Source: Bacteroidales bacterium Bact_09 (GTDB lineage: Bacteria > Bacteroidota > Bacteroidia > Bacteroidales > UBA932). From it: a DNA stretch of 64,000 nucleotides. The notes under the pieces are model-generated. The model was not told where the DNA came from. It saw only the letters and a program-made list of their open reading frames with translations, and did no database searches. Within the stretch, counting starts at the first letter, position 1; the number at the start of each line of letters is the position of its first letter. The stretch is from positions 19,009 to 83,008 of the forward strand of contig LUZA01000025.1 of the NCBI GenBank assembly GCA_001603455.1, written 5' to 3'. Position numbers and translations under genes: made by a program. Of this stretch, positions 51,175 through 54,972 are shown piece after piece.

Positions 51175-54100
51175 TTAATATCGGTTGTTTGCATCAAGAA
51201 TGGAGAAGATAAAGGTATAATCCCCATATGGCAGCATGTGCTGTGACAATGGCAGGGCACCCCAGGAATTGACGCATCCCACCCCCATTTGGCGGAGATC
51301 TATACAACATTGCGTGAAGTTTTCTTCTTTCAAATCACGGGAATGACGGTTTTGTTTGGAAAGACCATCATCGAGCGTTTCCATGGCATAATGAAGGGCC
51401 GAAGCTGAAAACAAGTTATCAGTATCCACCCGGATCCCTGCACCCGATACATCCAGCAGTTCCCACCACCGGAGGTCTGTTCTTGTTCCGGTTTCCTGGG
51501 GCCTTACATAAGGGTAAAATTGAGAGGAAACGCTTTGTTCGTAAAGGCCGACAAAAGCGGCGTCTTTTCTGTCCGGATAGTTTTCTCCGGGACCTCTGCC
51601 GTAATAGACCAGACGGTCATATCTTTTTGGTGTAAAGAACCGCATCCCAAAACGGAACATAGGAGGCATTTGCAATGCTTCTTCTGCTCCGGTTTCCGTT
51701 ACCAGTTGCTGTGTGATGCTGAGCCCTCCTCTTGGATCGGGACTGTATATCATGTAAAGTTTTGCCTTCAGCTGAGGCATTTCATATGTTGCCCTTATGG
51801 TTTTTCCGGTTACCTCAAAACCTTTGAATTCCATCTGTGGATCGAACCATGCCCTGTATTTAAGCTGGAGTGAAGCACCAAAATCGTTGTCGGTGGGAGC
51901 ACGCCAAAAATTGGGCATAATCTGGGTGTTGTCCAGAAGTATATTTTTTCCCCCGAAAGAAAGCCGGGAAATAAATCCGTTCCGGTGGCTGAATTCCACA
52001 TGCATATTTCCAGCATCTGCTATCAGCCAGTTATGGTCATTATCACATATATCAAACACAGGTTCTGGTTTTGGAGCATAACTGCAGTCTTTTGTTCCAT
52101 AAAGATTAACAGGTAACTGTGCTTTAGCCAGGATTGTTCCGGCAGGCAGAAGCCCTTCTGCTTTACGGGTGAAAAAGCAGATATTCAGAAACAGCTCTTG
52201 ACCACAGTACGCTTCCAGATCGGACAACCGGTACCCCAGATCTAAAGTGCTTGTTTGCTGCGGGGCCGTTTTCAGGTACGGCATATGTCCCTTGAGAACC
52301 GGGATGCCGTCAGCGATCAGCTTCCACTCCAGGGACAAGTGTGATAGATCCCGGAAGAAATATTCATTGAACACATTTATCTTGCCATTGACAACATCGG
52401 CCTCCCGGGTCCATACGTTCTGATAATAATATGCCACTTCTTCTGTATGGGGATTGGGATCCCTGTCAGGGCTGAACAACCCGTTACAATTAAAATTCTG
52501 GCTAGAAACATCGTACCGGTTGTAATCACCACCATAGCTGTGAACATAATAACCTCCCGGTTTCCACATATGCAGTGCCTGATCTACAAAATCCCAGATG
52601 AATCCGCCCTGGTATTGGGGAAATTTACGGATAATCTCCCAGTAACGGTTAAATCCTCCCATGGAATTTCCCATAGCATGGGCATACTCGCATTGTATCA
52701 ATGGCCTTTGAGGATCGTTTTCCAGGTAACGGATACATCCTTCGTAATTCATATACATAGGGGCAAAGATGTCTGAGATCTCCGGCCTGGTGGCACGTTC
52801 ATACTGAATGGGCCGTCCCTGGACATCGGCGTAGCGGAGAACCTCGTATCCCTTTGTGAAATTGTCACCGTCCCCGGCTTCATTGCCCATGGACCAGATG
52901 ATCACACAGGCATGGTTTTTATCTCTCTGATACATTCTTTCAATCCTTTCCAGATGTGCCTGCGTATAATCGGACCTGGCGGCCAGGGTGTTTTTTCCGT
53001 ACCCCATGCCGTGCGATTCAATATTTGCCTCATCTACAACATAAATCCCGTACAGATCGCACAATTCATACCAGAGTGAAGTATTTGGATAGTGGCTGGT
53101 CCTCACGGCATTGATATTATATTGTTTCATTAACTGAATGTCCTGTATCATGCGTTCACGCGATATATAATATCCCGTAACAGGGTCCATCTCGTGCCTG
53201 TTAACACCTTTGATCAGAACCGGTTGTCCATTAACCAGCAACTGTGCGTTTTTGATCTCGACATTCCTGAATCCCACTTTCCAGGGGATGAATTCTGTTA
53301 CCCTGCCTGTGATGCTGTCTGCAAGTGAAAGAACAAGTGTATAGAGATGCGGTAGTTCTGCAGACCAGGTTTTTACATTTTTAATGGGAATGTTTCCCGA
53401 CCAGGTGTCCCCGCCGCTTCCCCCGAGGTCTATTATTCTCAGACTGATTCCATGCTGGTCCAACAGTTCGGCCCGTACGCACATGTGTTCGGCAGGTTTG
53501 TTCAGGCTGACCGTTATATTCAGGTTGCCGTTTTTGTAATTGTTTTCCAGGGTCGGATTAACGATGAAATCCTGAATATGTGTATTTTCCCTGGCAACCA
53601 GGAACACATCCCTGCCTATCCCGCTTAGCCGCCAGAAATCCTGGTCTTCCAGATACGTCCCGTCACACCAACGGAATACTTTCAGTGCCATGAAATTCTC
53701 CCCTGATCGAAGGTAAGGGGTAATGTCAAATTGTGCTTCCAGTTTGCTGTCTTCCGAATACCCGGCGAACATACCGTTGATCCAAAGGCTCATATTGGAA
53801 GTAACAGATCCGAAATGAACGAAAACTTGTCTGCCTTCCCACTCCCGAGGCAGGGTGAAAGTATGGCGGTAATATCCTGTGTGGTTGTTGATCTCTGGTA
53901 CCAGGGGTGGATTGGGCCGGTATTGATTTGCCCAGGCATATCCGGCATTAAGGTACAGCGGATCTCCGTATCCGTTCAGTTCCCAGAGTCCGGGAACGGG
54001 TATCAGTGCCCACGATCTGTCATCATATAAGGGATCCTGAAAATGTGAATAACCTTGGTCTGCATTCTGGGTCCAGGCAAATTTCCAGAGACCTTCCAGA

Positions 54101-54972
54101 TTTTTAAAATATATGGAAGAATCCCTGCAGCCAGTCAGTGCCATGGGGAGTGTCTCGTAGGGGAAATAAGAGGTACGCATGGGAGCACGGTTGATCTGGT
54201 TCAATTCCGGGTCACGCCATGTTTCCTTGTATTCATACAGTGGATGGTCGGTTGTAATGTAATCAGCACCCGAGAGAATGAAATAATGAAAATCTTCGGG
54301 ACGGTTTACCGTCCATACATTAACCGTAAGTCCCAGTTCATGTGCCCGCCGGATCCACCACGGATTTTCTTTCAAAATCCGTATATTGTAATCAAGTCCT
54401 GAATAACCTCTTTCTTTCAGTTGGTCCGGGGTTAGTGATCCTCCCAGGTAAGCTACCCTGGCATTTGGATCGGAATCGATGATCGTCTGGCATATGTGCG
54501 ATGAGAAACTGATGTATTCTACTTTATTTCCGGTACCTGTTTGTTCAACCAGCTCCAGAATCTTGGCCACTGCTGCTTTTTCGGTAATTTGATCACGGTG
54601 AGGCTTGATCTCGATGATCAATCTTGTATGGTCAGATGCAGCGATAAGTGGCAGAATCTCGTCCAGCAGCGGGATGGTTTCCCCATTGGTCAAAAGATGT
54701 TCCGAAAGCTCACTGTAAGAACTTTCGTCCACTCTTTTTCCATTAAGCACCGGATCGTGTACCAGTACCACTTTGCCATCAGTTGTAAGATAGACATCTA
54801 TCTCGGCCCCGTAACAACGGGCCTCGATAGCGTTTAGTACAGAACTTTTGGAATTTTGCGCCGATCCCTCTCTGGTCCAAAATCCCCTGTGGGCAATCAC
54901 GCCGGGTTGTGACAGCAGGGGAAGAAAAGACAGGAGGTACAGGATGGATGAAACAAGGATGTTGCGTAACAT
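51175..54972 (-). CDS. Fusion: glycerophosphodiester phosphodiesterase (aa ~24-248) plus GH2 beta-galactosidase (aa ~250-1265)
   Basis: N-terminal [36 protein letters not shown]; then GH2 [18 protein letters not shown] (acid/base) and [13 protein letters not shown] (nucleophile), all in one ORF. Confidence 0.92.

Follow-up and report, generated by a model that had tools for sequence, protein, structure and literature searches.

One open reading frame in the window, by which we mean the whole 64,000-nucleotide stretch of Bacteroidales DNA analysed here, appears to join a GDPD phosphodiesterase to a GH2 beta-galactosidase. The locus raises three questions: whether the two enzymes are truly encoded as one chain, how widely and in which lineage they are joined, and on which substrates such a protein could act.

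Domain organization of the fusion protein

The gene extends from position 54972 to position 51175 on the minus strand and encodes 1265 residues without an internal stop in the translation of the window. Its features are as follows.

51175..54972, minus strand: GDPD-GH2 fusion gene, 1265 aa; single open frame with Pfam domains, kept in 13/13 genomes of the genus
54910..54972, minus strand: predicted type I signal peptide, residues 1-21; read by eye, with similar N-termini in the other 12 fusions
54241..54891, minus strand: GDPD domain, residues 28-244; PF03009, E 1.5e-19
54220..54240, minus strand: junction, residues 245-251; from the alignment of 13 fusions with E. coli LacZ and from stand-alone GH2 relatives
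53596..54108, minus strand: Glyco_hydro_2_N, the GH2 sugar-binding jelly-roll, residues 289-459; PF02837
53266..53583, minus strand: Glyco_hydro_2, the GH2 immunoglobulin-like domain, residues 464-569; PF00703
52414..53262, minus strand: GH2 TIM barrel, residues 571-853; PF02836
52879-52881, minus strand: codon of the acid/base E698, aligned to E. coli LacZ E461
52687-52689, minus strand: codon of the nucleophile E762, aligned to E. coli LacZ E537
52108..52380, minus strand: LacZ_4 (LacZ domain 4), residues 865-955; PF16353
51199..52011, minus strand: Bgal_small_N (LacZ domain 5), residues 988-1258; PF02929, with W1237 corresponding to LacZ W999

Every Pfam domain exceeds its curated cut-off; PF03009, for instance, scores 71.5 bits against a cut-off of 23.6. 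The GDPD motifs are HRG (residues 28-30), E57/D59, H72 and E121/K123. The N-terminus, as judged by eye, resembles a type I signal peptide and has no lipobox cysteine. The GH2 half (residues 289-1258) features the five-domain LacZ-type layout, including Bgal_small_N. Since the protein scores 949.1 bits with the NCBIfam model Bga2A (NF052611), below the cut-off of 999, it is assigned to the GH2 LacZ type and not to the Bga2A equivalog. An earlier description of this DNA, made from the letters alone (the sequence-only reading), had reported an uninterrupted 1265-residue frame with a signal peptide, a complete GDPD and a complete beta-galactosidase carrying both catalytic glutamates; the translation, the Pfam assignments and the alignment of E698 and E762 with their LacZ counterparts all agree with that description.

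At the junction, the GDPD end motif ITTD.P is followed by a few residues and then by the GH2 start motif W.DP..NQ.NR.PMRTS. The join had been placed near residue 249, where a stand-alone GH2 would begin, and this position stands: W252 aligns with W16 of E. coli LacZ (junction at about residues 249-252), and the alignment with stand-alone GH2 relatives begins at about residue 250. E. coli LacZ and the proteins of PDB entries 3dec and 3bga share all five domains and the checked active-site residues with the fusion; LacZ-type beta-galactosidases differ from it in lacking the GDPD, their chain starting at about residue 250 of the fusion.

Distribution of the fusion

The genus consists of little-studied bacteria of anaerobic digesters. 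All 13 of its genomes carry the full-length fusion at one conserved locus, and none carries a split form. In each of them, the fused GDPD is the sole PF03009 protein. When 84,980 species genomes were scanned with the GDPD half, 80 loci were found, 11 of which (L002-L012) encode the same full-length fusion, with GDPD halves 57-85% identical to that of the window; at the other loci, the GDPD stands alone or is joined to other domains. The full fusion was absent from the whole genomes of 48 family and order relatives, and no further GDPD-GH2 fusion emerged from GDPD searches across the order (393 genomes) or the phylum (396 genomes; the two best candidates scored per genome). Among the best matches listed in the plasmid search, there were GH2 halves only and no fusion. 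Two long GDPD frames (G958 and G835), considered as possible GH2 fusions, were rejected, their sequences featuring a GDPD and lectin-like repeats.

Within the genomes searched, the GDPD-GH2 fusion is lineage-specific to the genus. An assembly chimera or a missed stop or start at about position 54225, which the sequence-only reading had named as a possible refutation, is excluded. Although the window comes from a draft, metagenome-type assembly of 165 contigs, the uninterrupted frame and its neighbours recur, at 57-85% identity, in 12 further genomes that were assembled independently. The gene is a genuine single-chain GDPD-GH2 fusion.

Conservation of the two active sites

The GDPD residues H28, R29, G30, E57, D59, H72, E121 and K123 are invariant in the alignment of the 13 fusions. 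On the GH2 side, the residues corresponding to LacZ N102, D201, H357, H391, E416, H418, N460, E461, Y503, E537, H540, W568, F601, N604 and W999 are identical in 13/13 fusions. Residue 824 (LacZ D598) is a serine only in the protein of the window, and an aspartate in the other 12.

Averaged over the 13 fusions, the TIM barrel is the most conserved domain (81% mean identity), followed by the GDPD with 75% and the remaining GH2 domains with 61-72%. The dN/dS values in seven close pairs range from 0.07 to 0.11 for the GDPD and from 0.10 to 0.13 for the GH2 half. Ratios of about 0.1 show that purifying selection acts strongly on both halves, and the chain is likely to contain two active enzymes.

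In the AlphaFold model of residues 22-960, the GDPD barrel is predicted with high confidence (pLDDT mostly 82-96). The GH2 part, built from a 12-row alignment, is poorly modelled (mean pLDDT 58, pTM 0.36) because the alignment is shallow.

Origin of the fusion

In a GDPD tree of 107 rows, the fused GDPDs form one clade (bootstrap 100), and their sister group consists of stand-alone Alistipes GDPDs. Monophyly and this sister relationship point to a single fusion event in the ancestor of the genus. The Alistipes proteins (L013 and L014) and the secreted Bacteroidales GDPD of PDB 3no3 belong to the same subfamily as the fused GDPD and match it in length, but they are single-domain proteins of about 250 aa. 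The Alistipes stand-alone genes follow a SusC/SusD pair at a distance of 103-105 bases, so this GDPD lineage is tied to imported substrates.

The closest parallel to the fusion is the GDPD-GH16 beta-1,3(4)-glucanase of PDB 7ww4 and 7wwc, in which an N-terminal GDPD of the same subfamily and a glycoside hydrolase likewise share one chain. The GDPD of the fusion matches 7ww4 with an E value of 3.7e-45, 3no3 and 7ww4 being the nearest solved structures, and one GDPD-GH16 relative from the searched genomes matches the whole 480-aa chain of 7ww4. The partners differ, however: a GH16 jelly-roll endo-glucanase in 7ww4, a GH2 here. As the GH16-fused GDPDs fall in a clade separate from the GH2-fused ones, the two fusions are independent.

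We also considered an ancestral state in which the two genes were chance neighbours in an operon. This was rejected: a LacZ-type GH2 lies within 6 kb of a stand-alone GDPD in only 3 of about 69 loci (L021, L024 and L055), by a rough estimate the frequency expected from chance when a genome holds many GH2 genes, and no GDPD is encoded close to any of the nearest GH2 relatives.

Genomic context

The genes flanking the fusion are listed below.

48619-49218, plus strand: zeta-toxin-like ATPase, 199 aa; PF06414
49172..51172, minus strand: GH97 retaining alpha-galactosidase; NCBIfam RetAlphGalacBctrd, 856.6 bits against a cut-off of 800; synteny kept in the genus
54973..55016, no strand: intergenic gap of 44 bases to the likely cyclase start; from the gene layout
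55017-55604, plus strand: putative cyclase / arylformamidase-like gene, divergent from the fusion; conserved in 13/13 genomes
55583..56653, minus strand: galactose mutarotase (galM-like); PF01263, TIGR02636, PRK11055; conserved synteny

The GH97 gene begins 2 bases past the fusion gene, and the two probably form one operon. In one genus member (G011; L142:6137-8142), GH97 is split into two frames by a frameshift or an assembly error. The zeta-toxin-like gene converges on GH97 and keeps its place next to the operon in most members of the genus; at L136, it is split into two frames (12698-13303). The 3' end of the cyclase gene overlaps galM by 22 bases. The 44-base gap probably serves as the regulatory region of the fusion and cyclase genes; no promoter-like site exceeding chance was found in it. 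Gene order is conserved in nearly all 13 genomes and reads metH, metF, putative rRNA methyltransferase, zeta-toxin-like ATPase, GH97, fusion, cyclase, galM, alpha/beta hydrolase, peptidase T-like, OPT transporter and VanY-like, where neighbours without a Pfam scan were named by eye.

The GH97 alpha-galactosidase and galM, together with a galactokinase that the genome of the window encodes at another place, indicate that the cluster concerns galactose. No SusC/SusD was found near the fusion in L002-L012, the conserved neighbours all being other genes, and the fusion locus is not a PUL in the sense of a cluster with a SusC/SusD pair; seven SusD genes are present in the genome of the window. The locus contains no phosphatase, lipase, glycerol-uptake or surface lipoprotein gene. 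In the same genome, neither an FGGY kinase nor a DAO_C domain is seen, and GlpT gives no match above the cut-off. The notion that, lacking an FGGY kinase, it cannot use glycerol was dropped, since this kinase is present in 9/13 genomes of the genus.

Proposed function

With a probability of roughly 0.45, we take the protein to be a periplasmic two-site exo-hydrolase whose two sites share small glycerol-linked molecules as a substrate class; catalytic activity, location and substrate class are each inferred. The C-terminal LacZ-type GH2 would take off terminal beta-galactose, and the N-terminal Mg/Ca-dependent GDPD would convert glycerophosphodiesters to sn-glycerol phosphate and an alcohol. 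Alpha-galactose would be taken off by the co-encoded GH97, and the mutarotase and galactokinase would carry the released galactose onward. The likeliest targets would be head groups of deacylated lipids (alpha-Gal-1,6-beta-Gal-glycerol, beta-Gal-glycerol and glycerophospho-X), with short galactosylated glycerophosphate pieces as alternatives. Because the signal peptide reads as type I and lacks a lipobox, a periplasmic location is expected, and small substrates are favoured accordingly.

Several lines of evidence support this proposal: sites intact in 13/13 fusions, low dN/dS, the status of the fused protein as sole GDPD, the presence of GH97, galM and galactokinase, a locus free of SusC/SusD, and the position of the closest stand-alone GDPDs, those of Alistipes, behind SusC/SusD. 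Deacylated membrane lipids leave digalactosyl-glycerol, galactosyl-glycerol and glycerophosphodiesters, and alpha-1,6 is the bond type of the terminal galactose in digalactosyl-glycerol. The GH97 relative BT1871, which is needed for the use of raffinose-family oligosaccharides, cleaves the alpha-1,6-galactose of melibiose (PMC11501099); this specificity matches the digalactosyl-glycerol bond and supports the proposal. GlpQ of B. subtilis and E. coli resembles the fused GDPD in fold, HRG/metal-site chemistry and export, but it is a separate stand-alone protein and is absent from the sequence matches that gave 3no3 and 7ww4. It acts exolytically on wall teichoic acid, needs the glycerol C2-OH to be free and comes to a halt where units are glycosylated (PMC7086022), a behaviour that would fit a partnership with galactosidases. 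On galactosylated glycerophosphate pieces, deglycosylation would also unblock the GDPD, because GlpQ-type GDPDs stall on glycosylated glycerol. A stricter version, in which the GH2 (with GH97) removes galactose from a glycerol carbon and so frees the C2 hydroxyl for the GDPD, would make the protein a self-unblocking exo-enzyme, possibly channelled; we consider it unlikely. If true, such an enzyme for galactosylated glycerophosphates would be undescribed so far.

Other observations weigh against the two-site exo-hydrolase. The locus has no phosphatase, lipase or glycerol-uptake gene, and the genome of the window lacks several glycerol functions, though nothing firm follows from this for the fate of glycerol phosphate, as the FGGY kinase is found in most of its genus. 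Moreover, the same GDPD subfamily occurs with unrelated partners (GH16, esterase and lectin-like), which suggests easy recombination and not a galactose-specific partnership. The bifunctional enzyme of the sequence-only reading is upheld as regards intact sites, purifying selection and a galactose-themed locus; one glycan common to both halves is conjectural.

The best surviving alternative, somewhat unlikely in our judgement, is that the two enzymes are tethered but work independently on unrelated small substrates, lactose-type galactosides and glycerophosphodiesters. The fusion would then fix only co-expression, export and stoichiometry, the sole GDPD having happened to join a LacZ. As no genome of the genus has another GDPD, the fusion must serve all general GDPD functions; its subfamily is readily fused to many partners, and no gene of the locus is specific for a mixed glycan. 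Yet all 13 genomes keep the fusion, the short junction is conserved and contains no long flexible linker, and the operon is coherently galactose-related.

It is less probable still that the protein de-caps or depolymerizes galactosylated glycerophosphate polymers, such as teichoic acids and capsules, from dead bacteria, with GH2 and GH97 stripping galactose before the GDPD trims glycerophosphate exolytically. The co-encoding of alpha- and beta-galactosidases with a GDPD is consistent with such a role, as is the behaviour of GlpQ, which shortens polyglycerophosphate from its end until it meets glycosylated units and stalls (PMC7086022), and the GH16-fused relative hints at glycan-linked phosphodiesters. 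Long polymers, however, would be out of reach of an enzyme with a periplasmic-type signal peptide whose locus has neither SusC/SusD nor a surface lipoprotein. For the same reason, the teichoic or capsular polymers first proposed as substrates are not favoured, and small deacylated head groups, likewise named in the sequence-only reading, fit better.

A non-catalytic GDPD, serving the GH2 as a structural or binding accessory in the manner of carbohydrate-binding modules, is very improbable: the short junction could act as a brace and GDPD-like barrels are modules of many secreted Bacteroidota proteins, but the metal and catalytic residues are invariant in the 13 fusions of this well-conserved domain (75% mean identity; dN/dS about 0.1).

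That the fusion takes the place of every stand-alone GDPD throughout the genus suggests a link, in this organism, between removing galactose and cleaving glycerophosphodiesters. If the two-site exo-hydrolase does act on a shared substrate, it would name a glycerol-phosphate/galactose nutrient, from lipid head groups or bacterial glycopolymers, that is recycled in anaerobic digesters. Such an enzyme could also be useful for treating galactosylated glycerophosphates in one pot.

GDPD modules in other Bacteroidota proteins

The novelty claimed for the architecture stands in part. No open-access paper describing a GDPD-GH2 protein was found, and this architecture is new among the sources searched; a single chain that combines a GDPD with a glycoside hydrolase is already known, at least as a structure (7ww4/7wwc), for which no open-access paper was found either. 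Our search of the literature on galactolipid breakdown by these enzymes returned nothing to the point.

The same GDPD subfamily recurs as a module of secreted Bacteroidota proteins, in the arrangements GDPD-GH16, GDPD-SGNH esterase-DUF4855, GDPD-DUF4855, GDPD-EEP, LamG-GDPD, BACON-GDPD and GDPD-GDPD. Such fusions, with GH16, esterase, EEP, lectin-like and BACON partners, suggest that phosphodiester-bearing glycans or lipids are under-recognised targets of secreted Bacteroidota enzymes. For instance, a 916-aa protein (L121:1591-4338, minus strand) consists of a GDPD, a GxDLY/SGNH esterase and DUF4855, and is possibly a de-esterifying plus phosphodiester-cleaving enzyme; L123 encodes a GDPD with DUF4855. 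In another protein (L129:838-2403, minus strand), a GDPD is joined to an endonuclease/exonuclease/phosphatase domain, which places two phosphodiesterase folds in one chain. Large secreted proteins combining a GDPD with LamG-type lectin domains, presumably GDPDs that bind their substrate, are encoded at L119, L034, L042, L081, L120, L122 and L151, that of L120 featuring BACON domains as well.
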